DNA of 64,000 bases from Spirosoma oryzae (lineage in GTDB: Bacteria; Bacteroidota; Bacteroidia; Cytophagales; Spirosomataceae), in the NCBI RefSeq assembly GCF_003002825.1, contig NZ_PVTE01000002.1:310001-374000 (forward strand). The letters are read 5' to 3'. The translations under genes and the position numbers were made by a program. Positions 50,045 to 64,000 of this stretch are shown here, piece by piece. Positions within the stretch are counted from its first letter, which is position 1; the number at the start of each line of letters is the position of its first letter. The notes beneath the pieces are model-generated. The model saw nothing but the letters and a program-made list of their open reading frames with translations. It searched no databases and had not been told where the DNA came from.

Positions 50045-50576
50045 AGTTATTCTTTGCTTCGTCGAACGCCTTGACGGCGTCTTCTTTTTTGAAAGCCCGT
50101 GCGGAGGGGTGCGTCCAGTAACAAAATTTGGCGGGGCCAGTGTATTTCTTTTCAAACGTGCCTACATGGTAGCCAAGCTCCTTACCCGTGACAATTACAA
50201 TATCAGGCGTCAGTTGTGCTATGACATAGTCGAGAGCCTCCTCAGCTTCCGCCCACATTTCAGGAGTCGGCCGCATACGTGGCCCATCCCCGACGAACTG
50301 CTGCACGTAATTATAAAACGCTACTCGATTCCACAGCTTATGTTCCTCTTCCAGGCTGATCCATTCATACGGCTTTCCGAGTAAAATCTTGGCGATTTTT
50401 GTAAAGAAAGGGCTACTACCTTTTTGACAAAGCGCCCAATCTTTGACGACATACTGCGTAAATGCAGGAGTATACCACTCGGGCTTACCGTAGTGCGACT
50501 CACCGAGTACCAGAATCTTCGGTGCTTGACTAGGGTAGTTCTCTCCTACCCAAGGTTCAAAAAAAGGCTCCTGCAT
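50034..50576 (-). CDS. UDG-superfamily-like protein, coupled to the MutS-family gene
   Basis: 180 residues from ATG 50576 (MQEPFFEPWVGENYPSQAPKILVLGESHYGKPEWY). PKILVLGESHYG matches the first strand-loop of uracil-DNA-glycosylase-fold proteins and PDIVIVTGKELGYHV with a later THPSARAF resembles their C-terminal strands and HPS loop. The canonical catalytic Asp/His set is not clear, so glycosylase activity is uncertain. It is probably not a typical UDG but a member of the hypothetical 'UDG-like' group. Translationally coupled to the MutS homologue by an 11-base overlap. Confidence 0.65.
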   Translation of the reverse strand: MQEPFFEPWVGENYPSQAPKILVLGESHYGKPEWYTPAFTQYVVKDWALCQKGSSPFFTKIAKILLGKPYEWISLEEEHKLWNRVAFYNYVQQFVGDGPRMRPTPEMWAEAEEALDYVIAQLTPDIVIVTGKELGYHVGTFEKKYTGPAKFCYWTHPSARAFKKEDAVKAFDEAKNNYAK

Positions 50577-50602
50577 GGCTGCTGTGAATTTAGATTTTGC
50601 AC

Positions 50603-50633
50603 ATAAAAATAATGTCGGGTTGCGAACCCGACA
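50603..50633 (-). terminator. fur terminator
   Basis: TGTCGGGTT/AACCCGACA stem of 9 bp around GCG, followed on the minus strand by a T-rich stretch. Confidence 0.75.
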
Positions 50634-50665
50634 CCACAGCAATCAAACACCTACACTGAGAAATA

Positions 50666-51079
50666 CTACTGCTTGCAGTCGCGGCAGGTGCCCTGAATAA
50701 GCAGGTTTGTTTCCCGGCGCTCGTAGCCTTCGGGAAGCACTAATGCCGGTATACGAACGCTATCCAGGCAAACGGTCTGACCGCAGTTTTCGCACTTAAA
50801 ATGGACATGGTCGTGATGGTGGTGCCCCTGCGAACAGGTATCTCGGCAAAGGGCATATTTCGTTCCCCCTTCATCGTCCAGCACTTTATGAAGCAGTCCT
50901 TTATCCAGAAACGTCCGCAGCGTTCGGTAGATCGTTACCCGGTCGTGGTCGGGGCCGAGACCACTCTCGACGTCGTTGTGGGCCAATGCATAACCCGCCT
51001 TCAAAAACAGGTCGAGCACTTCCTCCCGGCCAGCCGTGTGGCGGAGGTTAAAGCTTTTAAGTGTCTGGGCAGCGTTCAT
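50666..51079 (-). CDS. Fur-family metalloregulator
   Basis: 137 residues. The winged helix contains GLGPDHDRVTIYRTLRTFLDKGLLHKV, and the metal-binding part has HHHHDHVHFKCENC plus a C-terminal CRDC that completes the structural zinc site. The His-rich loop is longer than in iron-type Fur, so a zinc or peroxide sensor (Zur/PerR type) is possible. Monocistronic with a terminator. Confidence 0.9.
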   Translation of the reverse strand: MNAAQTLKSFNLRHTAGREEVLDLFLKAGYALAHNDVESGLGPDHDRVTIYRTLRTFLDKGLLHKVLDDEGGTKYALCRDTCSQGHHHHDHVHFKCENCGQTVCLDSVRIPALVLPEGYERRETNLLIQGTCRDCKQ

Positions 51080-51112
51080 ACAAATTGACGGTATAGGGTA
51101 AGGAATTTCCGA

Positions 51113-52915
51113 CTAGCTGATCGGCTCAAACTGAAGTTTAACCAGATTCGCGTAGACGCCATCTTCCAACGTCGCCAGTTCATCGTGCGTACCTGCTTCA
51201 GCAATTTGTCCTTCGCGCAGTACGTAGATTTTATCGACCTTGCGAATAGTGGCCAACCGGTGCGCGATGATAATCGTCGTGCGGTTCTGCATCAGCTCGT
51301 CCAGCGCCGACTGTACCAGTTGTTCCGACTCGGCATCGAGCGAACTCGTTGCTTCGTCGAGTACCAGAATCGCCGGATCTTTCAGGATGGCGCGGGCAAT
51401 AGCGATACGTTGCCGCTGACCGCCCGATAGTTTAACGCCCCGCTCGCCCACGATAGTTTTGAAGCCCTCGGGGAACGACTCGATGAAGTTCAGTGCATTG
51501 GCTTTGCGGGCGGCTTCGCGCACGTCGGCTTCCGTGGCCCCCAGTCGACCATATTGAATGTTCTCCATGATCGTCCCGCCGAACAGAATCACTTCCTGCG
51601 GCACAACGGCGATGTTCTTGCGAAGCTCAGTTAGGTTAAAGCTGGTCAGGTCGCGACCGTCGATGGTGATACGACCGCTGCTCAGGTTGTAGTAGCGCAT
51701 CAGCAGCTGCACCAGCGTCGACTTACCGGCTCCGCTCTGCCCTACCAACGCAATCTTACGGCCGGCGGCAACGTCGAGCGACACACCTTTCAGGACAGGA
51801 ATATCGGGCCGGGCCGGATACGAGAATTTGAGGTTCTCGAACTGTACATTACCCTGCACGGGTACAAACAAGGGCAACTCGTCCGAAGCGTTTACTTCCG
51901 ATGCTTCACCCAGAATTTCCAGAATACGCTCCGACGATCCAACTGTTTTCTGCAACTGGGCGTACAGATCGCCCATACCGGCCACCGAACCACCGATAAA
52001 TGTGGTGTATACGATAAACGTCAGCAGGTCAGAAAAGGGCATTTCGTTGTTCAGCACCAGCGAACCGCCGTACCAGACCACGCCGATAATGCCACCAAAC
52101 AGGGCGAAAATGATGAACGATACGAATATGCCCCGGTATTTAGCTGCGTGCAGGGCTGTGCTGACAACCCGCTGCAAGGCTGAGCCATACCGGTTGATTT
52201 CCAGCCGTTCGTTGGTAAACGCTTTGACGATATTGACCGATTGCAGCGTTTCCTCGACAACGACGTTTGCTTCCGCCAGGTGGTCCTGCGCCCGCTTCGA
52301 CAGCTTGCGGATAAATTTGCCGAAGAAGATAGCCGCAACAATGATAACCGGGAACGTTGCCAGCATGAACAGCGTCAGCTTCCAGGACACGTAGAAGATG
52401 ATGGCCGTACCGATCAGCAGCGTTGCTACCTGCCGGAACAGTTCAGCTACGGTCAGCGTCAGTACGTCCTGCAACTGCGATACGTCGGCCGAAATCCGGC
52501 TCGTGAGTTCACCAACCCGGCGCTGTTCGAAAAAGGGGATCGGCAGCGTAATGATTTTGCTGTACGTGGCCCGACGTACATCGGCCATCGCCCGCTCGCT
52601 GACCTGCGAGAAAAAGTAAATGCGGAAGAACGAAAAAATGGCCTGCGCGACCAGTACGCCCACAAAAAACAGCGTGACCTGGTTGAGCGTGTAGGCTGAT
52701 TTACCCTGAATAACGCTGGTGATCTGCCCGATAAGCAAACCAAAGCTCATCGTCGTTCCCGCCGACAGGATCAGGAACACAAACCCAATGATGTATTGCA
52801 AGCGATAGGGCCGCACGAACTGAAAGATGCTCAGTGCCTTGCGGAACCCTTCTTTTGTTACGCGTTTTTTGTCGGCCTCGTCCGATTCGCTATCGGTACC
52901 TCTTCGTTTAGCCAT
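51113..52915 (-). CDS. ABC exporter, fused membrane and ATPase domains (MsbA-like)
   Basis: 600 residues from ATG 52915 (MAKRRGTDSESDEADKKRV); the longer frame begins with TTG. Six membrane helices in the first 330 residues, then the nucleotide-binding domain with Walker A LVGQSGAGKSTLVQLL, signature LSGGQRQRIAIARAIL and Walker B ILVLDEATSSLD, and the switch IAHRLATIRKVD. Half-transporter working as a homodimer. Substrate unknown: lipid or peptide. gldB lies just upstream on the same strand (40 bases). Confidence 0.93.
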   Translation of the reverse strand: MAKRRGTDSESDEADKKRVTKEGFRKALSIFQFVRPYRLQYIIGFVFLILSAGTTMSFGLLIGQITSVIQGKSAYTLNQVTLFFVGVLVAQAIFSFFRIYFFSQVSERAMADVRRATYSKIITLPIPFFEQRRVGELTSRISADVSQLQDVLTLTVAELFRQVATLLIGTAIIFYVSWKLTLFMLATFPVIIVAAIFFGKFIRKLSKRAQDHLAEANVVVEETLQSVNIVKAFTNERLEINRYGSALQRVVSTALHAAKYRGIFVSFIIFALFGGIIGVVWYGGSLVLNNEMPFSDLLTFIVYTTFIGGSVAGMGDLYAQLQKTVGSSERILEILGEASEVNASDELPLFVPVQGNVQFENLKFSYPARPDIPVLKGVSLDVAAGRKIALVGQSGAGKSTLVQLLMRYYNLSSGRITIDGRDLTSFNLTELRKNIAVVPQEVILFGGTIMENIQYGRLGATEADVREAARKANALNFIESFPEGFKTIVGERGVKLSGGQRQRIAIARAILKDPAILVLDEATSSLDAESEQLVQSALDELMQNRTTIIIAHRLATIRKVDKIYVLREGQIAEAGTHDELATLEDGVYANLVKLQFEPIS

Positions 52916-52955
52916 TGCTTTGCTCGTCAACCGGCAGCTAACCGGTATGCGTTAA

Positions 52956-53936
52956 TTAATCTAGTTGTCCTTTATAGCCTGACTGCTCAAAAATTTGCCG
53001 GGCATCGGCGTTCTGCATCAGTTCCCGGATGCCTACGCTTCGTTTGTCGTAATAGGCACTGACGATACGCCAGCCTACCCAACGACCAATAGCCCCCGGT
53101 GCAGACCGTCCGATCTCGGCCGTGAAGGGCCGTTCGTTCATGTACCGCTGCTTGATTGCCGGGCTCGTCTGATACAGCAGCCGCTCGTCAATGAAATGAC
53201 CCCAGACAATGTCCTGCGCGTTAAACGTTTCGGTCAGTTGCTTGTCTGTATAGCCGATGATCAGACTATCAGGAACGGCTTCTTTGCTGGGCAACATGGT
53301 CCGCGTGAAGACATAGCCTTTACCGTAGTAGATCATGTCGGCCAGCAGCGTCTGATCGGTACGGTTAGTCGCATTATACCGGTCCGATATAGCGAAGATA
53401 ACAGCTGGCACTATGTATTCCGGCTGATACCGGCGTAGAATGTATTGAGGAAACGTTGGACCTACCGGACGATACTTCGATTTGGGACCGGCGAAATAGT
53501 CGATTCCGATAATAACCAGGCTGTCGTTGACAATCAGGTCAGGCCCCATAAAGCCTGTCGCAATCGTTTCGACGTGGGGGGCCTTGAAGTCCGGGAAGTC
53601 TTTTTTGATATTGGCGAAGGCGTCGGCGAGCTGGGTGCGCAATTCACTAAAGTCACCGTACTCATCCTGTAGTTGCTTGTTGAAATCCTGCAAAGCCGGA
53701 TTGTTGACCCGGTCAGTCAATTCCCGGACGAGGGCCGTATCATTACCGGCCTGGTTCGCGTTAAAATACAATTGAGCGACGGCGGGATGCTGATTCAGGA
53801 AGGCGCGGACGTCGTCGGCCGATTTGGCGGCAAACAGTTGCTGATCGAGCCGAACAACCGACACGTCATCGGGTTTTGAGCATGAACACAGCCATAACCC
53901 GCAAAATAGCCCGAGCAGGGCAACGCGTATTTGCAT
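52956..53936 (-). CDS. gldB: Gliding motility lipoprotein GldB
   Basis: 326 residues from ATG 53936 (MQIRVALLGLFCGLWLCSC, lipobox with Cys19). Mature protein has the GldB markers IIGIDYFAGPKSKYRPVGPTFPQYILRRYQPE, the DIVWGHFIDERLLYQTSPAIKQRYM motif and WVGWRIVSAYYDKRS. GldB is an outer-membrane or periplasmic lipoprotein required for gliding in Flavobacterium johnsoniae and conserved in non-gliding Bacteroidetes too. A -7 box overlapping the start of the divergent barrel gene drives it. Confidence 0.9.
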   Translation of the reverse strand: MQIRVALLGLFCGLWLCSCSKPDDVSVVRLDQQLFAAKSADDVRAFLNQHPAVAQLYFNANQAGNDTALVRELTDRVNNPALQDFNKQLQDEYGDFSELRTQLADAFANIKKDFPDFKAPHVETIATGFMGPDLIVNDSLVIIGIDYFAGPKSKYRPVGPTFPQYILRRYQPEYIVPAVIFAISDRYNATNRTDQTLLADMIYYGKGYVFTRTMLPSKEAVPDSLIIGYTDKQLTETFNAQDIVWGHFIDERLLYQTSPAIKQRYMNERPFTAEIGRSAPGAIGRWVGWRIVSAYYDKRSVGIRELMQNADARQIFEQSGYKGQLD

Positions 53937-53968
53937 GAAAATCACCGGTTTTCTATATTGAAAACGTA

Positions 53969-53976
53969 CAAAATTA
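53969..53976 (-). promoter_or_regulatory. -7 box of gldB, overlapping the divergent start codon
   Basis: TAATTTTG on the minus strand covers the A of the ATG (53976) of the plus-strand barrel gene, 32 bases before the gldB ATG. The two genes therefore compete for this site. Confidence 0.55.
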
Positions 53977-54857
53977 TGAAAAAAGTTGCAGGGTTCGGGC
54001 TCATTTCATTGCTTCTGCTGAGTGCGCTCAGTCAGGCGCAGACTAAGTCACCGGCCCTCTACCGGTTGAAAACGAAAGAATCCAGCGTTACTGAGCGACG
54101 ATTTCGAAAAATTCTCGGCGATAATTATGACGGGCAGGATCAGAACCGGCGCGACTACGAGGATGACCGCAAACGGCGCCGTCGGCGGCAAACTACCGGC
54201 CTGAACGACGAAACAGGCCCAGACTACGCCCGCCCGACTCACCTCATCGAAATGGGACTTCGCTTCGCCCCGCACCTCGACCTAAACACGGCCGATGGCT
54301 CGGGGTCGTACTTAGGTTTTCGGAACAATGGCGCGGGCATGCGGTTCAGCGTCGGCCCAACGCTCGACTACTATTTTTTCAAGGATCGCTACGCCTTCAG
54401 CACCGGCTTGTGGTATACGGTGAAACGATCAGGTTTTCAGATGCCGGGGACGTTCGGGCAGTCGCGGTTCAATCCAAATTTACCCGAGCAGGAATCGACT
54501 TATAATCTTCAGTATCTCCAATTGCCGGTTACGGTGAAACTGTTTGCCAATGACATTGCGCCGGGCGTACGACTCTACGTACAAACAGGGGGGCTGCTGA
54601 GTTTGAAGCTAGCCGAGAAAGCGCAGGACAAAGCCCGGAACGGTCTTTACCTGGCCGAAAGCGGTGGCGACCGGCGACAATACGGGTTCGGCGATATTGA
54701 GTTGCTGCTCGGTACGGGTGTGCAGTACAAGCTCAACCGCAACAACGCGCTCAACCTGGGTATCAGCTATCAACGCGGTCTGCTGAACGTTGCCCGTGGG
54801 CGGGAATTAGTATCCAAGAACCGGGTGGTATCGATTGACTTAGGATTCCAGTTTTGA
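53976..54857 (+). CDS. Outer-membrane beta-barrel protein (PorT-like)
   Basis: 293 residues from ATG 53976 (MKKVAGFGLISLLLLSALSQAQ). A charged linker (RRDYEDDRKRRRRRQ) follows, then a barrel with GLRFAPHLDLNTADG, FSVGPTLDYYFFKDRYAFSTGLWYTVKRSGF, TYNLQYLQLPVTVKLFAN and a terminal VVSIDLGFQF, a pattern seen in PorT/SprT-type and 'outer membrane beta-barrel' proteins. The GldB neighbour makes a link to gliding or type IX secretion possible, but the assignment to PorT itself is not established. Confidence 0.75.
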   Translation: MKKVAGFGLISLLLLSALSQAQTKSPALYRLKTKESSVTERRFRKILGDNYDGQDQNRRDYEDDRKRRRRRQTTGLNDETGPDYARPTHLIEMGLRFAPHLDLNTADGSGSYLGFRNNGAGMRFSVGPTLDYYFFKDRYAFSTGLWYTVKRSGFQMPGTFGQSRFNPNLPEQESTYNLQYLQLPVTVKLFANDIAPGVRLYVQTGGLLSLKLAEKAQDKARNGLYLAESGGDRRQYGFGDIELLLGTGVQYKLNRNNALNLGISYQRGLLNVARGRELVSKNRVVSIDLGFQF

Positions 54858-54862
54858 TGGTT

Positions 54863-54985
54863 TTAAACACGGAGGTTTTAGAGGTTTCACAGAGTACACG
54901 GAGGAACAGAAATGTCGGGTTGAAATCCGGTGCTTCTATTTATTCTCTGTTATCTCCGTGAAACCTCCGTGTTCTCTGTGTTTAA
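54863..54985. repeat. Intergenic palindromic repeat, family 1, copy 2
   Basis: AAACACGGAGGTTTTAGAGG...TTCACAGAG on the left, CTCCGTGAAACCTCCGTG...CTCTGTGTTTAAA on the right, around a centre with TGTCGGGTTG (a word also seen in the fur terminator). It separates the convergent barrel and hisF genes. Confidence 0.8.
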
Positions 54986-54989
54986 ATCA

Positions 54990-55745
54990 TCAGATCCGCA
55001 TCTCGACACCTTTACCGCTCAGATAGCCTTTCAGATCTGGAATATCGATTTCGCGGAAGTGGAAGATACTGGCAGCTAGTCCCGCGTCGGCTTTACCCGT
55101 TGTGAAGACATCAACGAAATGGTCCATTGTACCGGCCCCGCCTGACGCGATGACGGGAATGTTGGCCGCACCGGAAATTTGCGCCGTCAACTCGATGGCA
55201 AAACCGGCTTTCGTACCGTCGGCATCCATCGACGTCAGCAGCAGCTCGCCCGCCCCACGCTCCTCAACCTCCTTCGCCCAAGCGATCGTACGTAGTTCGG
55301 TTGGTTTACGACCGCCGTGCGTATGAACGATATGCTCCCCGTCGACGTAGCGTGTGTCGATGGCGACGACCACACACTGACTGCCAAATTCCAGCGCCAG
55401 TTCATTGACCAGGTCGGGATTCCGCACTGCCGATGAATTGATCGAAATTTTATCGGCTCCCGCGTTCAGCAGCGCCGACACATCGGCCACCGACGAAATA
55501 CCGCCCCCGACGGTGAACGGAATATTGATCGTATGTGCGACATTCCTAACCAGTTCGATCAACGTTTTGCGCTCGTCGACGGTGGCCGTGATGTCCAGAA
55601 ACACCAGTTCGTCAGCGCCCTGTTCGGCGTACATAGCAGCCAACGCCACGGGGTCGCCAGCATCGCGCAGATTCACAAAGTTGGTCCCTTTTACGGTGCG
55701 ACCATCTTTTATATCAAGGCAGGGTATGATTCGTTTTGTCAGCAT
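54990..55745 (-). CDS. hisF: Imidazole glycerol phosphate synthase, cyclase subunit
   Basis: 251 residues, (beta/alpha)8 barrel. [32 protein letters not shown] has the catalytic Asp in PCLDIKDG, and [15 protein letters not shown] plus GGAGTMDHF (phosphate-binding) complete the usual set. With HisH it makes IGP and AICAR from PRFAR and ammonia. The start codon overlaps the stop of the preceding GNAT gene by one base (TGATG). Confidence 0.97.
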
Positions 55746-56167
55746 CAGTAGCTGTCGATTAGTTTTCGTTGCATATACAGGTTTGGATCGTCAGGCAAAA
55801 CGAAGCCAAACTGCTCATAGAGGGTGTGTGCATCTTTCGTGACCAGCGTCCAGCGCCGAAGTCCCTGCAAATCGGGGTAGTCGATGATGTATTGCACCAG
55901 CCGTTTCGACAACCCTTGCCCGCGCTGTTCTTTCGCCACGAATACGTCTGACAGGTACGCAAAGGTGGTATAGTCGGTAATGACGCGGGCAAAGCCAACC
56001 TGCCGATCATTGTTGTAAATACCAAAGCAGAGCGAGTTATCGATGGCTTTTTGTACCAGTTCCAACGGCATATTTTTCGCCCAGTACGACTCCTGACTTA
56101 GGAACTGATGAATAACCGTCAGATCAAGCCGCGATTTGTCGGTGCTGATTATGTAGTCGTTATCCAT
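55745..56167 (-). CDS. GNAT acetyltransferase inside the his operon
   Basis: 140 residues. [25 protein letters not shown] is the acetyl-CoA-binding motif (RGxGLxxxL) and [18 protein letters not shown] the C-terminal strand. It sits between hisA (2 bases) and hisF (1-base overlap), so it is co-translated with histidine genes. A substrate within the pathway is not known; a role in protein or small-molecule acetylation unrelated to histidine is equally likely. Confidence 0.88.
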
Positions 56168-56169
56168 CG

Positions 56170-56892
56170 CTATGTAGTGGCAAACCGGCTCAGTTCTTTC
56201 AGCGTAACACGGCCTTCGTAAATCGCCTTACCGACGATGACGCCAAACAGGTTCATATCGGCCAGCGTTTCGATATCCGCCATATTGCTGACTCCCCCAC
56301 TGGCAATGATGTTTAATTTGGGCAATTGATCCTGCATGGTACGGTACAGGTCAAACGACGGGCCTTGCAGCAATCCGTCTTTTGCCACGTCGGTACTGAT
56401 GACATACTGAATGCCTTTGTCGACCCAGTTCTGTACGAAATCGTAGACCCAGACATCGGTACCTTCTTCCCAGCCACTGACGGCGATTTTTTCGTTTTTC
56501 GCATCGGCCCCCAGAATAATCTTGTCGGAACCGTGCTGCGACAGCCACCGCTCCATCACGTCGGGCTGTTTCACGGCGATACTGCCACCGGTTATTTGTC
56601 TGGCTCCGCATTCGAAGGCGATCTGCAAATCTTCGTCGGACTGAACGCCACCGCCAAAGTCGACGTGCAGGCTGGTTTTTCCGGCAATCAGTTCCAGCAC
56701 TTTCCAGTTGATAACGCGCTTCGCCTTGGCCCCATCGAGATCGACCAGGTGCAGCCGTGTCAGACCAGCGTCTTCGAACTGCTGGGCGACTTCCAGCGGT
56801 CGGGCGTTGTATTCTTTTTTCTGACTGTAATCGCCCTGCGTCAGCCGGACAGCTTTACCGTCGATGAGATCAATAGCGGGGATGATATGCAT
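56170..56892 (-). CDS. hisA: Phosphoribosylformimino-5-aminoimidazole carboxamide ribotide isomerase
   Basis: 240 residues. IIPAIDLIDGKAVRLTQGDYSQ begins with the catalytic Asp; ISTDVAKDGLLQGPSFDLY holds the second Asp and IIASGGVSNMADIE the phosphate site. It is the third enzyme of the cluster, giving the substrate of HisF-HisH. Confidence 0.97.
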   Translation of the reverse strand: MHIIPAIDLIDGKAVRLTQGDYSQKKEYNARPLEVAQQFEDAGLTRLHLVDLDGAKAKRVINWKVLELIAGKTSLHVDFGGGVQSDEDLQIAFECGARQITGGSIAVKQPDVMERWLSQHGSDKIILGADAKNEKIAVSGWEEGTDVWVYDFVQNWVDKGIQYVISTDVAKDGLLQGPSFDLYRTMQDQLPKLNIIASGGVSNMADIETLADMNLFGVIVGKAIYEGRVTLKELSRFATT

Positions 56893-56898
56893 GGCTTT

Positions 56899-56985
56899 CT
56901 AAACACAGAGAAACAGAGGTTTTCACGGAGAAAACAGAGTCTCTTACTTCCTCTGTGAAAACCTCCGTGACCTCTGTGTTAAATT
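56899..56985. repeat. Intergenic palindromic repeat, family 1, copy 3
   Basis: AACACAGAGAAACAGAGGTTTTCACGGAG pairs with CTCTGTGAAAACCTCCGTGACCTCTGTGTT. It lies inside the his operon between hisH and hisA, so it must be transcribed and could form a stable mRNA hairpin. Confidence 0.85.
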
Positions 56986-57572
56986 TATAACCGTAAGAAG
57001 TTCTCAAGTATTCGCTGGCCGACGTTGCCGCTGATTTCGGCGTGGAACTGGGCCGCGTAGAAGTTGTCGCGGTGCAGCATCGCGCTGAAGGGCCGGCCGT
57101 ATTCGCAGACAGCCGTAGTGTGTTCGCAAACGTCGGCGGCATAGCTATGGACGAAGTAAACGTAGTCGTTTTCCGTCAGACCAGCCGTCAGTGGGCTTTT
57201 CAGCGAATGGATGCTGTTCCAGCCCGTATGCGGCACTTTCAGGCCAACGTCGCCCGGTAGCCGACGAACGTCGATGTCGAAGATGCCCATGCAGGTAGCG
57301 TCGTTTTCTTCCGAGTGACGGCACATCAGCTGCATACCCACGCAGGTACCCAACACCGGCTGTTTAAGCGACGGAATTAGCTTGTCGAGGCCGCGTTGCC
57401 GCAGGTACGCCATGGCCGTACTGGCTTCGCCCACGCCGGGGAAGATCACCTTGTCGGCCGAGCGGATTTCGGCTTCGTCGTCCGTAAGCAGGTAATTGGC
57501 ACCCAGTCGGTCGAGGGCGTACATGACCGACTGTACATTCCCCGCGTTGTATTTGATAATAACCGTTTTCAT
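56985..57572 (-). CDS. hisH: Imidazole glycerol phosphate synthase, glutaminase subunit
   Basis: 195 residues from ATG 57572 (MKTVIIKYNAGNVQSVMYALDRLG). The class I amidotransferase triad is VLGTCVGMQLM (Cys) and AQFHAEISGN (His, Glu); the residues around the His (normally FHPE) read FHAE, a conservative departure. It supplies ammonia to HisF. It is the first gene of this his cluster, behind an attenuator-like leader. Confidence 0.95.
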   Translation of the reverse strand: MKTVIIKYNAGNVQSVMYALDRLGANYLLTDDEAEIRSADKVIFPGVGEASTAMAYLRQRGLDKLIPSLKQPVLGTCVGMQLMCRHSEENDATCMGIFDIDVRRLPGDVGLKVPHTGWNSIHSLKSPLTAGLTENDYVYFVHSYAADVCEHTTAVCEYGRPFSAMLHRDNFYAAQFHAEISGNVGQRILENFLRL

Positions 57573-57660
57573 AAAGCAAAAGCCCGGCTGATAAACCGGG
57601 CTTGGGTATGGCTGTGAGGAAAAATCCAGAAACAATCGTACCGCCCGTCGCTAACGGCGG
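57570..57660 (-). promoter_or_regulatory. Attenuator-like leader of the his operon
   Basis: Downstream of the leader peptide the minus-strand RNA has hairpin 1, CCGCCGT pairing with ACGGGCGG (57660-57641, one bulge), which covers the last codons and stop of the peptide. About 37 bases later hairpin 2, AAGCCCGG / CCGGGCTT (57603-57596 and 57587-57580), is followed by TTTGCTTT, as in an intrinsic terminator, immediately before the hisH ATG. The 3' arm of hairpin 1 (CGGGC) can pair with the 5' arm of hairpin 2 (GCCCG), so the two structures are partly exclusive. Confidence 0.5.
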
Positions 57661-57695
57661 TGATGAACATAGGCAACTGTCTGGTAGTAACTCAT
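57651..57695 (-). CDS. Putative histidine leader peptide (14 residues)
   Basis: ATG-AGT-TAC-TAC-...-CAT-CAC-CGC-CGT-TAG encodes MSYYQTVAYVHHRR. The ATG begins 4 bases after the -7 box. The two adjacent His codons come just before the first hairpin, where a ribosome stalled for charged tRNA-His would block it. Only two His codons is fewer than the proteobacterial his leaders, so the peptide could also sense Tyr or be chance. Confidence 0.45.
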   Translation of the reverse strand: MSYYQTVAYVHHRR

Positions 57696-57699
57696 GTAG

Positions 57700-57730
57700 C
57701 AAAAGTACCGGACGCAGGGCGCAAAATCAA
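57700..57730 (-). promoter_or_regulatory. his operon promoter, TTG-N20-TACTTTTG
   Basis: TACTTTTG (57707-57700) and TTG (57730-57728) on the minus strand, 20 bases apart, the same spacing as the tRNA-Phe promoter. Confidence 0.65.
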
Positions 57731-57748
57731 CCGCTAGCCCGAAACTGG

Positions 57749-58102
57749 CTACGGTTCTATAGGTCGGATTCGTATCTTCTGAGGGGTAACCGTTGTAAAG
57801 TTACCGGTCAGATCATCGACACGCTCCGTCAGTAGTTTGATCAGGAGCTGCTTCATCGTCTCCGTTTCCTTAAACTGGTAACGAAGAAACACAACACTGA
57901 TTCCCCGAACGTTATGTGCGAAGACCCACTCGCCGAAGTCTTTATCTTCAGTCAGGATAATCCGAGCTGGTACGCGCGAGAGAAAAATTACCTCTTCATC
58001 CCGTATACCACTATTTGATTCGTTAATTGAATAAACATCGATACCTCGTTCACGAATCGCTCGAATCAAGGCATGATCAATATTCTCGTCGGCGATAATC
58101 AT
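57749..58102 (-). CDS. DUF5615 PIN-like protein, likely toxin
   Basis: 117 residues. MIIADENIDHALIRAIRERGIDVYSI has the first PIN-type acidic residues, and LTEDKDFGEWVF the next pair, as in DUF5615 (Mut7-C-like RNases). It overlaps the DUF433 gene by 4 bases (ATGA) and is downstream of it, the standard toxin-antitoxin arrangement for this pair. Nuclease activity is likely from family but not shown. Confidence 0.85.
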   Translation of the reverse strand: MIIADENIDHALIRAIRERGIDVYSINESNSGIRDEEVIFLSRVPARIILTEDKDFGEWVFAHNVRGISVVFLRYQFKETETMKQLLIKLLTERVDDLTGNFTTVTPQKIRIRPIEP

Positions 58103-58332
58103 GCTGCGTTGAGCATAATAACTTCTTCACTCGCTAGCACATTCGACGCATATTGGAACACGGCTAATAGATCATCGAGTGTAAGCGTCGGATACATTGC
58201 CAGCAAATCGGTAGTAGTAGCCCCTTCCGAAAGTTTGCGTAGCAGCAACTCAACCGTAATGCGAGTACCTCGTATAACTGGTTTACCCAGCATAACCCGG
58301 TAATCGGCGTGAATGCGATCGGTATAATTCAT
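58099..58332 (-). CDS. DUF433 antitoxin-like protein
   Basis: 77 residues. GKPVIRGTRITVELLLRKLSEGATTTDLLAMYPTLTLDDLLAVFQYA is the DUF433 helix-turn-helix signature. Precedes and overlaps the DUF5615 gene; probably binds its own promoter and neutralises the toxin. Confidence 0.9.
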   Translation of the reverse strand: MNYTDRIHADYRVMLGKPVIRGTRITVELLLRKLSEGATTTDLLAMYPTLTLDDLLAVFQYASNVLASEEVIMLNAA

Positions 58333-58365
58333 AGCTATGCAATGTAATCAGTAATCGAACTGTCT

Positions 58366-58416
58366 CAAAAAGCGGGATGCTATTTGTAGGGTCGTTTAAA
58401 CAAATAGCATCCCGCT
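58366..58416 (-). terminator. Terminator of the LLM oxidoreductase gene
   Basis: Perfect 16-bp stem (58371-58386 with 58401-58416), 14-base loop, then TTTTTGAGA on the minus strand. Confidence 0.9.
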
Positions 58417-58428
58417 GTTCGAGCCACC

Positions 58429-59487
58429 TTATACAGTAACCGTTTCGACTGATGTCGACTGCAGGGCTTTGCGAACCGCCGGGGCGACTTTCGTCCCGAA
58501 CAGTTCGATAGACCGTAGGTTTTGCTTATGCGAAATCAGATGACCACCAATCATCTGGCCCAGATAACGCGTGTTCTGAAACAGCTCGTGGAAATGCAGA
58601 ATCTTGTCGATTACCTGCTGCGGACTACCAACCATGAGCGGTCCGTATTTCCGCGTCTGCTCGTACTGCTCACGGCTGATGGGGGGCCAGCCCCGCTCCC
58701 GCCCAACCCGGTTCATCAACAGCTCATAGGGTGGCCAGAACTCGTTCGATGCCTGCTGCGAATCGTCGGCGATGTAGAACTGCGAGTTGGCTGCCAGTTG
58801 TAGCTTAGTCACATCGTGGCCCGCCTGCGCAGCCGATTCCCGGTACAGATTTATGAATGGTACGAACCGTTCGGGTGTACCGCCTAACATGGCTACTGTC
58901 ATCGGTAGATTAAGCCGACCCGCCCGAACCGCCGATGCGGGCGTACCACCCACGGCAATCCAGATCGGTAGTTTTTCCTGCAAGGGACGCGGGTAGATGC
59001 CAGCCTGTTTCAGCGGTGCCCGGAGCTTACCAGACCACGTAACTTTTTCACTTTCGTTGATAGCCAATAGCAGGTTTAGCTTCTCCGTAAACAACTCATT
59101 GTAGTCGCTCAGGTCGTAGCCAAACAGCGGAAACGACTCGGTAAAGGAGCCTCGCCCAGCCAGAATCTCCGCCCGACCGTTCGAGATCAGATCCAGCGTA
59201 GCGAAATTCTGAAACGTGCGTACCGGATCGGCGGAACTCAGCACCGTTACCGCGCTCGATAGTCGGATGGTTTTGGTTTGAGCCGCAGCCGCAGCCAGTA
59301 TCACTTCGGGAGCCGAGATAATAAAGTCGGGGCGGTGGTGCTCGCCCAGCGCAAACACGTCGAGCCCAACCTCGTCGGCCAGTTTTATTTCTTCCAGCAG
59401 GTCCTGCATCCGCTGATGCGCATTGACGGCCTGCCCTGCTTTATTATCGGGATTTACCTCTCCGAAACTACTAATACCGAGTTCCAT
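58429..59487 (-). CDS. LLM-class flavin-dependent oxidoreductase
   Basis: 352 residues, luciferase-like barrel: MELGISSFGE, EVGLDVFALGEHHRPDFIISAPEVILAAAAAQTKTIRLSSAV and GRAEILAGRGSFTESFPLFGYDL are family features. Uses reduced FMN or F420-like flavin for a monooxygenase or reductase reaction; substrate unknown. Monocistronic. Confidence 0.88.
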   Translation of the reverse strand: MELGISSFGEVNPDNKAGQAVNAHQRMQDLLEEIKLADEVGLDVFALGEHHRPDFIISAPEVILAAAAAQTKTIRLSSAVTVLSSADPVRTFQNFATLDLISNGRAEILAGRGSFTESFPLFGYDLSDYNELFTEKLNLLLAINESEKVTWSGKLRAPLKQAGIYPRPLQEKLPIWIAVGGTPASAVRAGRLNLPMTVAMLGGTPERFVPFINLYRESAAQAGHDVTKLQLAANSQFYIADDSQQASNEFWPPYELLMNRVGRERGWPPISREQYEQTRKYGPLMVGSPQQVIDKILHFHELFQNTRYLGQMIGGHLISHKQNLRSIELFGTKVAPAVRKALQSTSVETVTV

Positions 59488-59565
59488 ATATTTCCAGAAG
59501 TATTAGATGTAGATACATCATTTTAATTACTAACACAGTCGCTTTACAAAACGTGCCCGTATCCA

Positions 59566-60477
59566 TCAGAAGAGGCTTCCTTGTATGACTTTCGGTTGCA
59601 GAACAGGTTCACGCAGGTTAAGCCCGCAATGTTTGTTCAGTTCACGAACCCAATACAGAATCAACTCGGGCGCAGTGTCGTTGTCGGCCCCGCCGTGGAT
59701 AAACAGGTAAGCCGTCTGTAGCCCTTTTTCAAACCACGTTTTCAGCCGCTGTATCCAGGCGTCCGTGCGGCTGTAATCGGTCGGGTGGCCTTCGTTGGCG
59801 ATGAAGCGCAGGGTCAGGACTGGGCTGCTTAGTCCCATATGTAGTACGTCGCGCCGGCCCGCTACGTCGGTAATGACGACGTGCCGACGTAGCGCATGTA
59901 ATCGTTCGAGCGTTTGCGACCAAAGCGCGGCTTTACTAAACCAGTCGGGATGTCGGAATTCAACGGCTACGTTCAGCTCGTCGGGCAAGTGTTTCAGGTA
60001 ACTTTCCAGTAACGGCCACTTATCGGGGCCAAAATGGGGCGGCAGTTGCAGGAAACTCATACCCAGAAATTCTTCCAGTTGCAGCACCGCGTTGACAAAC
60101 TCTTCGGTTTGTAATTCGGTCGCAATCAGTTGCCGGTCGTGGCTAATCAGTTGTGGGAATTTGGGGCAGTAGGTAAAGCCGGGCGTCGCTTCAGTTTTCC
60201 ACTTCTCGATCATCCCCGGCGTCGGAATCTGGTAGTGCGTCAGGTTCAGCTCGATGGTGTTGAATTGCCGGGTGTAGTGGTGCAGAAAGTCTTTCTCTTT
60301 TGCGTTTGTCGGATAGACTTTGCCGACGTAATCTTTGTTGGCCCAGATCGGCCCACCGATGTGTACCTGCGGCCGAGCGGTAGGTTCAACGTCCGTCCAG
60401 ACGCGCGCATTAAACGCATTTCCGGGCGGCAGCGCGAAGTTAACTGTGTCAAGATTAGGGGCTTTTCCAAATTCCAT
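59566..60477 (-). CDS. DUF72 protein
   Basis: 303 residues from ATG 60477. VHIGGPIWANKDYVGKVYPTNAKEKDFLHHYTRQFNTIELNLTHYQIP and the FTYCPKFPQLISHDR, VAVEFRHPDWF, GGADNDTAPELI segments match DUF72, a TIM-barrel family of unknown function related to YecE. The longer frame starts inside the promoter region. Confidence 0.9.
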   Translation of the reverse strand: MEFGKAPNLDTVNFALPPGNAFNARVWTDVEPTARPQVHIGGPIWANKDYVGKVYPTNAKEKDFLHHYTRQFNTIELNLTHYQIPTPGMIEKWKTEATPGFTYCPKFPQLISHDRQLIATELQTEEFVNAVLQLEEFLGMSFLQLPPHFGPDKWPLLESYLKHLPDELNVAVEFRHPDWFSKAALWSQTLERLHALRRHVVITDVAGRRDVLHMGLSSPVLTLRFIANEGHPTDYSRTDAWIQRLKTWFEKGLQTAYLFIHGGADNDTAPELILYWVRELNKHCGLNLREPVLQPKVIQGSLF

Positions 60478-60701
60478 AGCCGTTGAGATGAAGTAACCTA
60501 GCAAGTAAAAATACGGCTCGTTTGTTTGAAAACCCATCGCTGACGGCACGCTATCCAGTCTTTAGGTGCAGGTTTACGTACTGTCTCCCAAACGAATGTT
60601 ACACATTAGGAATGATTCCACTCGCGGTACCCGATAGCTCATTATACAGCCAGCAGCTACACGCAAATCGTCAGCCCGTCCGGTATTTCCCGCGACGGGC
60701 T

Positions 60702-60709
60702 TATTTTTG
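60702..60709 (+). promoter_or_regulatory. -7 box of valS
   Basis: TATTTTTG, 32 bases before the valS ATG. No -33 TTG at the usual distance. Confidence 0.55.
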
Positions 60710-60741
60710 TCGTCTAATCGGGCACAGCCCCGCCACAACGA

Positions 60742-63405
60742 ATGATCGCCAAGACATATTCACCCCAGGACATTGAAGCCAAATGGTATCAGTACTGGCT
60801 CGACAATAAGCTGTTCAAATCGACGCCCGACGAGCGGGAGCCCTACACCATCGTGATTCCGCCACCCAACGTCACGGGTGTGCTGCACATGGGTCACATG
60901 CTCAACAACACCATTCAGGACGTGCTGATTCGTAAGGCGCGGATGGAAGGCAAAAATGCCTGCTGGGTGCCGGGTACCGACCATGCGAGTATCGCGACTG
61001 AAGCGAAAGTCGTGGCGATGCTGGCGGAGCGGGGCATCAAAAAGCAGGACCTCACCCGCGACGAGTTTCTGGCGTACGCCTGGGAATGGAAAGAAAAATA
61101 CGGCGGCATCATCCTGAGTCAGCTGGCTAAACTCGGTGCGTCCTGCGACTGGGATCGAACCCGCTTTACGATGGAGCCGGACCTGTATCAGTCAGTGATC
61201 GACGTGTTCGTTGACCTGTACGAAAAAGGCCTGATCTATCGCGGCATTCGCATGGTTAACTGGGACCCGCAGGGGCGCACGGCGGTGTCGGATGAAGAGG
61301 TCATCACCAAAGAAGTACAACAGAAGCTGGTCTACATCCGCTACGCCATTAAAGGCAGCACGACCGATACCGGCGAACCCGAGTACATCACGATCGCGAC
61401 CGTTCGGCCGGAAACGATTATGGCCGATGCAGCCATCGCCGTCAATCCGAACGACGAACGATACACGCATTTGCACGGTAAAACGGCGATCATTCCGCTG
61501 ATCAACCGGGAAGTACCGATCATCACCGACGAGTACGTTGCGATGGATTTCGGCACGGGCGGTCTGAAAGTGACGCCTGCCCACGACCCCAATGACTATA
61601 GCTTAGGAATCAAGCACAACCTACCGGTTCTCGACATTCTGAACGACGACGGCACGCTAAACGAGAAAGCGCAGATTCTGGTCGGGCAGGATCGGTTTGC
61701 TGCCCGGAAAGCGATCATCAAACTGCTGGATGAAGCGGGGCATCTGGTCAAGACCGAAGATAACAAGTCGAACGTCGGCACATCGGAGCGGACGGGCGCG
61801 GTTATCGAGCCGAAGCTATCGTTGCAGTGGTTCCTGAAGATGGAGCAACTGGCTAAACCCGCCCTCGACGGTGTCATGGACGATACGATTCAGCTGGTTC
61901 CGCCGAAGTTCAAGAACATGTACCGGGCCTGGATGGAGAACGTTCACGACTGGTGTATCAGCCGACAATTGTGGTGGGGACAGCGCATTCCGGCTTACTA
62001 TCTACAGGACGGTACCGTAATCGTAGCCCGCAGTAAGCACGAAGCGCTGGAGAAGGTGCAGCACGAGAAGCTGCTGTTCGCCATGACCGAAGCCGATCTG
62101 ACGCAGGACGACGACGTACTCGATACGTGGTTCTCATCGTGGCTGTGGCCGATCTCGGTATTCAACGGTATCGAAGAACCCAACAACCCCGACATCAACT
62201 ATTACTATCCGACCAACGACCTTGTTACGGCACCGGAGATTCTGTTCTTCTGGGTGGCCCGGATGATCATTGCCGGCTACGAGTACAAAGGCGAAGCGCC
62301 GTTTAAAAACGTCTACCTGACCGGTATCGTCCGCGACAAGCTGGGCCGGAAAATGTCGAAGTCGCTGGGTAACTCACCCGATCCGCTCGACCTGATCGAT
62401 CAGTACGGGGCCGACGGCGTTCGGACGGGCATGCTGTTCAGTTCTCCCGCCGGTAATGATTTGCCGTTCGACGAGAAGTTGGTTGAGCAGGGCCGTAATT
62501 TCAGCAACAAGATCTGGAACGCCTTCCGGCTGGTCAAAAGCTGGACGGTATCGGAAACAGCCGATGCTGGTGCCAACGCGCTATCGGTTCAGTGGTTCGA
62601 CGCAAAGCTAAACGCGACGCTGGCTGAAATCGAAGACCTGTTCAGCAAGTTCCGCATTTCCGATGCACTACAGGCCATCTACAAACTGATCTGGGACGAC
62701 TTCTGTGCGCAATATCTCGAACTGATCAAACCGGCTTACGACACCGAAGCCGGGGCGGCACAACCCATCGACCAGGCAACGTTCGACGCGACGATTAACT
62801 TCTTCGAGCGGTTGATGTGCCTGGCGCATCCGTTCATGCCGTTTATCACCGAAGAAATCTGGCAGGACATCCGCGACCGGAAGGAAGGCGACAGCATCTG
62901 CGTAGCCCCGTTCCCAAAGGCCGGCACCGTCGATCAGCAGATTCTGGTCGACTTCGATACGCTGTTCGGGATCGTATCGAACATTCGGAATATCCGAAAC
63001 ACCAAGCAGCTTTCGCCCAAAACCGAGCTGCCCCTGGCCATTCGCACGGCCGATAAGCAGCGGTTCAGCACGCTGGAGCCACTGATTCAGAAAATGGCGA
63101 ATGTGTCCGCGATTACGTACACGAGCGAGAAAGCCGAGGGAACTGCGTTCCTGATCAAGGCCGACGAGTTCTTCGTTAACCTGGCCGGTGAAGTGGACGC
63201 AGAGCAGGAAATTGCCAACGCGCAGAAAGAGCTTGACTACCTGACCGGCTTCCGCGAGTCGACGCTAAAAAAGCTGTCGAACGAAAAGTTTGTCGCCAAT
63301 GCCAAGCCCGAACTGGTTGAGCGCGAACGACAGAAACTAGCCGACGCCGACGCCAAGATTCAGGCGCTGAACGAACGACTGCAAAGCCTGACAGCCAATA
63401 GCTAA
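60742..63405 (+). CDS. valS: Valyl-tRNA synthetase
   Basis: 887 residues. HIGH motif as PPPNVTGVLHMGHMLNNT, the editing domain in the middle (ATVRPETIMADAAIAVNP; GTGGLKVTPAHDPNDY), KMSKS as [14 protein letters not shown], and a C-terminal coiled-coil tail (AEQEIANAQKELDYL... SLTANS) typical of ValRS. Length and motif order are normal. Confidence 0.98.
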   Translation: MIAKTYSPQDIEAKWYQYWLDNKLFKSTPDEREPYTIVIPPPNVTGVLHMGHMLNNTIQDVLIRKARMEGKNACWVPGTDHASIATEAKVVAMLAERGIKKQDLTRDEFLAYAWEWKEKYGGIILSQLAKLGASCDWDRTRFTMEPDLYQSVIDVFVDLYEKGLIYRGIRMVNWDPQGRTAVSDEEVITKEVQQKLVYIRYAIKGSTTDTGEPEYITIATVRPETIMADAAIAVNPNDERYTHLHGKTAIIPLINREVPIITDEYVAMDFGTGGLKVTPAHDPNDYSLGIKHNLPVLDILNDDGTLNEKAQILVGQDRFAARKAIIKLLDEAGHLVKTEDNKSNVGTSERTGAVIEPKLSLQWFLKMEQLAKPALDGVMDDTIQLVPPKFKNMYRAWMENVHDWCISRQLWWGQRIPAYYLQDGTVIVARSKHEALEKVQHEKLLFAMTEADLTQDDDVLDTWFSSWLWPISVFNGIEEPNNPDINYYYPTNDLVTAPEILFFWVARMIIAGYEYKGEAPFKNVYLTGIVRDKLGRKMSKSLGNSPDPLDLIDQYGADGVRTGMLFSSPAGNDLPFDEKLVEQGRNFSNKIWNAFRLVKSWTVSETADAGANALSVQWFDAKLNATLAEIEDLFSKFRISDALQAIYKLIWDDFCAQYLELIKPAYDTEAGAAQPIDQATFDATINFFERLMCLAHPFMPFITEEIWQDIRDRKEGDSICVAPFPKAGTVDQQILVDFDTLFGIVSNIRNIRNTKQLSPKTELPLAIRTADKQRFSTLEPLIQKMANVSAITYTSEKAEGTAFLIKADEFFVNLAGEVDAEQEIANAQKELDYLTGFRESTLKKLSNEKFVANAKPELVERERQKLADADAKIQALNERLQSLTANS

Positions 63406-63431
63406 GCATTTACGTTTGTTGACTAAGTGTA

Positions 63432-63471
63432 CTGTGGTTCGGTGATTTCGGTTGCCGAACCACAGCATTTT
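63432..63471 (+). terminator. valS terminator
   Basis: CTGTGGTTCGG (63432-63442) with CCGAACCACAG (63455-63465), 11 bp, then CATTTTA. Confidence 0.75.
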
Positions 63472-63596
63472 ACAGCCAGTCATCATAGCACCACTGCATT
63501 GACATTCTTCCTTTTTCTAATTTTCAGTCATAAAATAGTGCGAATCGTTCTATTTTTACCCGAATTACCACGTCTACGTCACCAATTACTGCCGTT

Positions 63597-64000
63597 ATGA
63601 ACAAGTGCATTTTTCTCGATCGCGACGGTGTTTTGAATGTAGATCGGCCCGACTACGTGTATCGGATCGACGACTTTATCATTCCCGACGGCGTTCCCCA
63701 GGCGTTACAATTGCTCAAAGACGCGGGGTATCTGCTGATTATCATCACCAATCAGGCTGGTATCGCCCGTGGCCTGTATACCCGCGACGATGTCATGAAG
63801 TGCTACGATTATCTACAGCAGCAGTGTGGTAATCTGATCGATGCTATTTATTACTGCCCGCATCACCCCAAGTTCGATTCCGAGTCGCTGATGCGGAAGC
63901 CTGGTTCGCTGATGATCGAGAAGGCGATGGCGAAGTACAACATCCAGCCAGACACGTCGTGGATGATCGGCGACGCGCTGCGGGACATGCAGGCAGGCCG
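63597..64000 (+). CDS. gmhB: D-glycero-D-manno-heptose 1,7-bisphosphate phosphatase-like HAD enzyme (partial)
   Basis: Runs off the window after 134 codons. HAD motif I FLDRDGVLNVDR, motif II IITNQAGIARGLYT, the zinc loop beginning CPHHPKF, motif III RKPGSL and motif IV in WMIGDALRDM are all visible. The Cys/His-rich zinc loop points to GmhB, which dephosphorylates heptose bisphosphate in LPS-core heptose synthesis; histidinol-phosphatase-type HAD relatives are the alternative. Confidence 0.85.
   Translation, partial: MNKCIFLDRDGVLNVDRPDYVYRIDDFIIPDGVPQALQLLKDAGYLLIIITNQAGIARGLYTRDDVMKCYDYLQQQCGNLIDAIYYCPHHPKFDSESLMRKPGSLMIEKAMAKYNIQPDTSWMIGDALRDMQAG

Follow-up and report, generated by a model that had tools for sequence, protein, structure and literature searches.

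In the window, the whole 64,000-nt stretch of Spirosoma oryzae DNA analysed here, four genes follow one another on the minus strand in the order hisH-hisA-GNAT-hisF. hisH (57572–56985, ATG at 57572), hisA (56892–56170) and hisF (55745–54990) were identified by matches above cut-off to TIGR01855, TIGR00007 and TIGR00735, respectively, and a GNAT acetyltransferase gene (56167–55745, PF00583) sits between hisA and hisF. According to these domain and family profiles, the products HisH, HisA and HisF act in histidine synthesis. hisH would be the first gene of the regulated operon, and its profile match begins at residue 1 in nearly all relatives. The his pathway is split, and the hisG gene lies on a different contig of the same assembly. 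An imperfect long palindrome occupies 56906–56978, between hisA and hisH, and similar ones are found at the same spot in several relatives. On the other side of hisH, a gene on the same strand (57749–58102) stops 18 nt upstream of the hisH promoter. The region directly upstream of the attenuator described below is taken up by a DUF5615 gene and, ahead of it, a small ORF that overlaps it (58099–58332), together spanning 57749–58332; we take this layout to resemble that of a toxin-antitoxin pair, and the small ORF had no NCBIfam match.

The signals ahead of hisH are all read on the minus strand. A Bacteroidota-type promoter (57730–57700) consists of a TTG box (57730–57728) and, 20 nt after it, the −7 element TACTTTTG (57707–57700). 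Four nucleotides, CTAC, separate this element from the ATG (57695) of a 14-codon leader ORF (57695–57651), which encodes MSYYQTVAYVHHRR followed by a stop and carries two His codons at 57665–57660. In the minimum free energy fold, segments 1 and 2 pair to form a leader hairpin (57684–57626) containing an inner stem over the ORF end (57661–57640). An intrinsic terminator (57603–57573), identified by fold, scan and compensatory changes, comprises a stem of 10 pairs (57603–57580) and the tail TTGCTTT (57579–57573). Segment 2 includes the putative antiterminator arm CGGGC (57647–57643), which is complementary to GCCCG (57601–57597), a part of the terminator's 5′ arm (segment 3). The first-pass annotation of this DNA had described the TTG-N20 promoter, the ATG 4 nt on, the 14-codon ORF, the hairpin at its end, the terminator before hisH and the 5-base complement between the 3′ arm of the first hairpin and the 5′ arm of the second, and each of these parts was recovered when we re-read the strand.

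Leader and terminator folded together to −37.4 kcal/mol (z = −3.09), a value matched by 2 of 200 shuffles, and the leader part without the terminator was unexceptional in the S. oryzae genome (z = −0.83). A consensus scan of 57400–58200 found two sites, the terminator stem and the hairpin over the ORF, a count that does not exceed that of shuffles (mean 1.0, sd 1.0). What speaks against chance is the conservation of the element in relatives.

Among 36 Spirosoma genomes, 34 gave a hisH match, and the upstream region was read in all 34. Promoter and short ORF stand at hisH in 32 of them, with TAnnTTTG 4 or 5 nt before the ATG and with leader peptides such as MILATTNHRHHHSER, MTTTKTTIHHHHVRP and MITTETHFFHHHARH; the leader of one of these 32 genomes (G033) has a single His codon. 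A 33rd case (G012) has its leader and terminator on a separate contig, followed by a palindromic insertion. In another genome (G017) the leader is absent upstream of hisH, which begins 7 nt past TACCTTTG. A search across the family gave a hisH match in 147 of 150 genomes. Of the 33 other genera with a match, mostly read from one genome per genus, the element is present in 18, absent from 12 and doubtful in 1, and the contigs of 2 were too short. The element is also present in seven Dyadobacter and two Siphonobacter records, and is absent before hisH in the Runella aurantiaca record. Upstream of the promoter, the sequence differs between clades. Additionally, a covariance model of the main clade (R1) matched strongly (E < 1e-9) once in each of 18 genomes out of 35. 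Seventeen of these matches lie at hisH and the other on the separate contig of G012; many of them are sequences used in building the model. The model does not recover the leader of the S. oryzae window, and no third leader copy is claimed from it (next best match, E = 5e-6). Judged by conservation, the element upstream of hisH is not due to chance.

Several loci depart from the common layout. In L206, the terminator comes almost immediately after the promoter TATCTTTG; apparently, the leader was deleted and the terminator kept. In L205, L211, L008 and L412, palindromic repeats, which we assume to be of the REP type, lie between attenuator and hisH or in the expected place of the leader, and in some of these loci a transposase-like ORF apparently adjoins them.

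Leaders in the Spirosoma and other-genera presence sets had been chosen partly by a spacing of 3–5 (L016 by its own motif). Since these sets used spacing as a criterion, spacing was counted solely from a separate set chosen on His content, in which an ATG-initiated ORF had to contain HH and at least 3 His and to lie within 350 nt of hisH. This filter was passed by 50 of 77 loci, of which 29 came from the 34 in Spirosoma and 21 from the 43 elsewhere. In the 50, the TAnnTTTG nearest to an in-frame ATG of the ORF was 4 nt away in 49 and 5 nt away in 1. From a partly overlapping set of 18 named records, 13 passed the His filter, with a spacing of 4 in 11, 5 in 1 and 3 in 1. The window ORF, with two His, fails the filter, and its spacing is 4. 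As a rough background for this window, TAnnTTTG occurs within 80 nt before the first ATG in 7 of 57 long ORFs and at 4 nt in 1. The near-leaderless start of the leader peptide had been called unusual in the first-pass annotation; by these counts it is a fixed property and no accident.

The −7 element of F. johnsoniae is described as running from T-12 to G-5, and promoters with 4 or 5 nt to the start are deemed probable (PMC6847099). Because this spacing matches that of the leader, the ATG is predicted by analogy to lie at +1, such that transcription would start at the A of the leader ATG (57695) and the ORF would be leaderless. An alternative transcript is possible, as read-through from the gene at 57749–58102 would make the ORF non-leaderless. 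Leaderless mRNAs are put at 5.5% in F. psychrophilum and 5′ UTRs shorter than 10 nt at about 3.7% in B. thetaiotaomicron, and in F. johnsoniae 13% of 5′ UTRs are given as not over 10 nt (PMC6847099). In contrast to these low published shares, the spacing predicted to be leaderless was found in 50 of 50 passing loci.

Between the leader ORF and hisH, a hairpin with a T-rich tail was found in 36 of 36 leader-bearing loci among the 53 read, a count made with no shuffled control. The terminators were located by folding, which favours the pairing percentage, and were drawn from 11 of 33 loci of the Spirosoma set and 33 of 36 others (L207, L220 and L233 left out), yielding 41 distinct terminators, the window's included. 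In the resulting alignment 99.3% of cells pair, and slid versions of the alignment pair far less. Cells changed on both sides numbered 29 compared with 7.4 in shuffles (0 of 500 shuffles as high), and the covariation score was 0.311 compared with 0.205 (again 0 of 500). Pairs changed on both sides numbered 4 compared with 2.1, a value reached by 21 of 500 shuffles. The terminator covaries across genera.

A hairpin placed close to hisH might instead exert histidine control at hisH translation by masking the start region, with no role in termination. Starts in Bacteroidota favour unstructured RNA, and 7 nt separate the end of the window's stem from the hisH ATG. Among relatives, however, the distance from hairpin to hisH ranges from 6 to 176 nt (the doubtful L233 left out), and the T-rich tail is kept. 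Because the distance varies while the tail stays, start masking is not the general role of the hairpin, and we regard control at hisH translation as very unlikely.

The coding content of the leader was examined in 20 distinct main-clade leaders. The two central His sites use CAT and CAC only (11 to 9 at one site and 19 to 1 at the other), and nonsynonymous variation affects most of the first seven residues. An argument from ORF length was dropped, being true by definition. In the comparison with relatives, promoter, ORF, His codons and terminator are conserved, the central His sites show synonymous changes only, and the terminator shows compensatory changes; the corresponding features of the first-pass annotation were thereby borne out. 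Terminated transcripts would be small leaderless mRNAs, and one could imagine that the His-rich micropeptide is itself functional, for example in metal binding, with the terminator making the peptide the main product. A precedent for a leader peptide acting in trans has been described for the trp leader of S. meliloti (PMC7298713). Strong variation outside the His region and a His count ranging from 1 to 5 in the Spirosoma set speak against such a function, which we consider highly improbable.

The hairpin could also be the terminator of the gene at 57749–58102, with the small ORF being a chance frame. That gene ends just before the promoter on the same strand, and the scan shows no other terminator-like site between it and 57658. 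Yet 32 of the 34 Spirosoma genomes and 18 of the 33 other genera keep the element at hisH, while the sequence above the promoter differs between clades, and the element has a fixed-spacing promoter and His codons. A chance ORF combined with a terminator of the upstream gene was therefore rejected on conservation, and its remaining probability is slight indeed.

The leader hairpin is predicted from single-sequence folds, and no covariation is claimed for it. In 65 distinct leaders, such folds had a mean z of −1.66, with 25 below −2 and 6 above 0. In free folds of most relatives, the ORF pairs with the RNA behind its stop, in a similar topology and a shifted register. The main-clade fold shows no two-sided changes in this hairpin, which is missing from the cross-clade consensus fold; the latter contains the terminator only. 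Of the two hairpins proposed earlier, the terminator is thus present in relatives with covariation, whereas the ORF hairpin is predicted in most of them with no covariation support.

The pairing logic was simulated by calculating the pairing of the terminator 5′ arm with upstream RNA before the 3′ arm is made, for a ribosome stalled at His, no ribosome, and a ribosome at the stop codon. In the Spirosoma set, the His-stalled ribosome gave the most upstream pairing in 33 of 33 leaders (31 distinct), compared with the same order in 388 of 1320 shuffled spacers (29%). In the second set, which came from other genera and named records (leaving out L207, from the genome of L076, the doubtful L233, and the near-identical L259, L263 and L296), the predicted order was obtained in 25 of 31 leaders, with 6 of 31 failing, compared with 334 of 775 shuffles (43%). 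For single leaders, no more than 2 of 40 shuffles reached the contrast between states in 23 of the 33 Spirosoma-set leaders; in the second set, no more than 1 of 25 shuffles did so for only 12 of the 31 leaders. In the window copy, the stalled state gave 5.23 nt of pairing, whereas its shuffles averaged 6.12 nt and 29 of 40 were as high, though its contrast between ribosome states was reached by only 2 of 40 shuffles. With two His codons and a 5-bp antiterminator, the window's own copy is a weak case, and the argument rests on its relatives.

As in ribosome-mediated attenuators, the operon is preceded by a short ORF containing codons for the amino acid that it produces, the downstream genes make the sensed amino acid (HisH, HisA and HisF), an intrinsic terminator stands between the ORF and the first gene, and a position-dependent antiterminator is found in silico for the set and marginally for the window copy. 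Collectively, sequence comparison and modelling make it very probable that hisH-hisA-GNAT-hisF is controlled by His-tRNA supply through ribosome-mediated transcription attenuation with a leader peptide that is predicted to be leaderless. Support comes from the parts themselves, their conservation, the His codons, the spacing, the terminator covariation and the in silico pairing logic. The reading as amino-acid attenuation offered in the first-pass annotation gains support from the conservation of the parts and of the His codons in relatives and from covariation of the terminator across genera.

In the mechanism that we propose, RNA polymerase would begin at the A of the leader ATG or at a neighbouring base, which would allow a ribosome to enter the nascent RNA at its 5′ end and translate the ORF. 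When charged His-tRNA is scarce, the ribosome would stall on the His codons and cover segment 1; segment 2, just past the stop codon, would then pair with the 5′ arm of the terminator, and with the terminator blocked the four genes would be transcribed together. When His-tRNA is plentiful, the ribosome would reach the stop codon and cover segment 2, and the terminator would form before hisH. In the absence of a ribosome, segments 1 and 2 would pair with each other, and the terminator would again form before hisH.

Attenuation by leader peptides is classical. The enteric hisL attenuator likewise combines a short ORF with His codons, alternative hairpins and a terminator before his genes; the Spirosoma leader differs in being predicted leaderless, in having 14–16 codons with 1–5 His, and in standing before hisH of a split pathway. 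Rfam searches of window positions 50000–64000 (E up to 1) and of 20 related loci (E up to 0.5) gave no match to His_leader, which we take to be RF00514. The four matches in the window have microRNA names, and none lies on the attenuator element. Ten matches were obtained in the related loci. Two of them are Thr_leader (RF00506) matches of 28.8 and 28.1 bits (cut-off 55; E = 0.27 and 0.4) on the his leaders L080 and L105, and the rest lie elsewhere or are unrelated. Such sub-threshold matches are as expected of another attenuator; they are far below the gathering score, and the L080 and L105 leaders code for His runs, not Thr/Ile. A leader that senses histidine by binding tRNA or protein, with the ORF secondary, is almost certainly not the explanation, as no T-box match was found in the same searches of the window and the 20 loci and the conserved core is a reading frame, although T-boxes are reported to control his genes elsewhere (PMC9413887).

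A structured 5′ element before hisG is described as common to Flavobacteriaceae genera, together with signs of leader peptides ahead of amino-acid operons and without an Rfam match (PMC9723704). It shares phylum and pathway with the Spirosoma hisH leader, and differs from it in standing before hisG, in another family. Leaderless attenuation is reported for S. meliloti trpL, in which the ATG of a 14-aa leader peptide forms the 5′ end of the RNA (PMC7298713). Both leaders are leaderless, the Spirosoma one by prediction; trpL senses Trp, not His, and belongs to another phylum, and we liken the two without claiming a sequence relation. As of 2010, leader-peptide systems were stated to have been shown previously only in Proteobacteria and Actinobacteria, with bacilli then added (PMC2965389). 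The first-pass annotation knew of no his version in Cytophagales. Among the open-access entries listed in our literature searches, none was a his leader of Cytophagales either; the Flavobacteriaceae hisG element has been published (PMC9723704), so the statement holds only in part. New here are the placement of a copy at hisH, within a split his pathway, and the fixed, predicted leaderless start of that copy, leader-peptide attenuation itself being already known.

We also examined hisG and other amino-acid genes. In 165 Bacteroidota hisG loci (genome G040 counted twice), a short ORF with at least 3 His including HH was found in 110 on the sense strand compared with 12 on the antisense strand, and an ORF with at least 4 His in 97 compared with 4. 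Leaving out the 35 Spirosoma loci, a His-rich leader ORF precedes hisG in 85 of 130, and a terminator-like hairpin follows 58 of these 85 leaders, compared with 59 of 425 simple shuffles. Of thirty hisG loci chosen mostly from newly sampled families, 4 had such a leader, two of which resemble chance. Where TAnnTTTG was found outside Spirosoma, its spacing was 3–10 nt in some families and at least 19 in others. The leaders of one family (f42; L086, L093, L100, L102–L104, L109, L110, L155 and L158) are very His-rich; four begin with GTG 3–4 nt past TAnnTTTG, and 9 of 10 have no terminator-like hairpin by the criteria used. They are perhaps under another mode of control.

In Spirosoma, an RHR-type leader ORF was found before hisG in 34 of 35 loci (one probably spurious), with a spacing of 4 or 5 in 28. 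These leaders showed no clear excess of terminators (12 of 25 compared with 42 of 125 shuffles), and for this reason an attenuation mechanism is not claimed for them. Leaders of the leaderless type at hisG of the genus read FRHRRHH, and the S. oryzae genome itself (L061) has FRHRR, with one His. Several Spirosoma hisG loci have a second TAnnTTTG site between leader and hisG.

Before trpE, thrA, ilvD and pheA (14 genomes each, narrow filter), a search for leaderless leaders gave two isolated non-ATG matches and none that recurred. A trpE leader of the MIWWWHSS type was found at one locus in each of 10 Spirosoma genomes, with no TAnnTTTG within 40 nt before the ATG; L344 has one site 33 nt before a longer in-frame start. 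In 9 of the 10 loci (L346, from the S. oryzae genome, L335, L336, L338–L341, L343 and L345; not L344), this leader lies just downstream of a same-strand tRNA-Pro(CGG) gene. Because of this upstream tRNA gene and the lack of a promoter at the ATG of the WWW leader, the trp attenuator may be co-transcribed with the tRNA. The Bacteroid-trp motif works by a leader peptide. The three Spirosoma WWW loci examined gave no gathering-score match to this motif (RF01692), which is described as a Bacteroidota motif named for trp (PMC2864571). The Spirosoma WWW leader is set apart by its position after tRNA-Pro in 9 of 10 loci and by the absence of TAnnTTTG within 40 nt.

We give even chances to the broader proposal that these leaders form a family-wide class of leaderless attenuators. 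In such a class, the sensing ribosome would load on the 5′-terminal AUG as it emerges, fusing promoter, start codon and sensor, with the 4-nt spacing held. Two such leaders, at hisG and hisH, would serve the split pathway of Spirosoma, and the terminated hisH RNAs would be leaderless mini-mRNAs of about 120 nt. Amino-acid control in Bacteroidota is, to our knowledge, little described, and the present work adds to the phylum a his attenuator with firm comparative support. Bacteroidota lack Shine-Dalgarno initiation. The hisH leader presents a case in which selection appears to favour leaderless initiation and not just to permit it, and with it the coupling of transcription and translation without Shine-Dalgarno sequences becomes testable.
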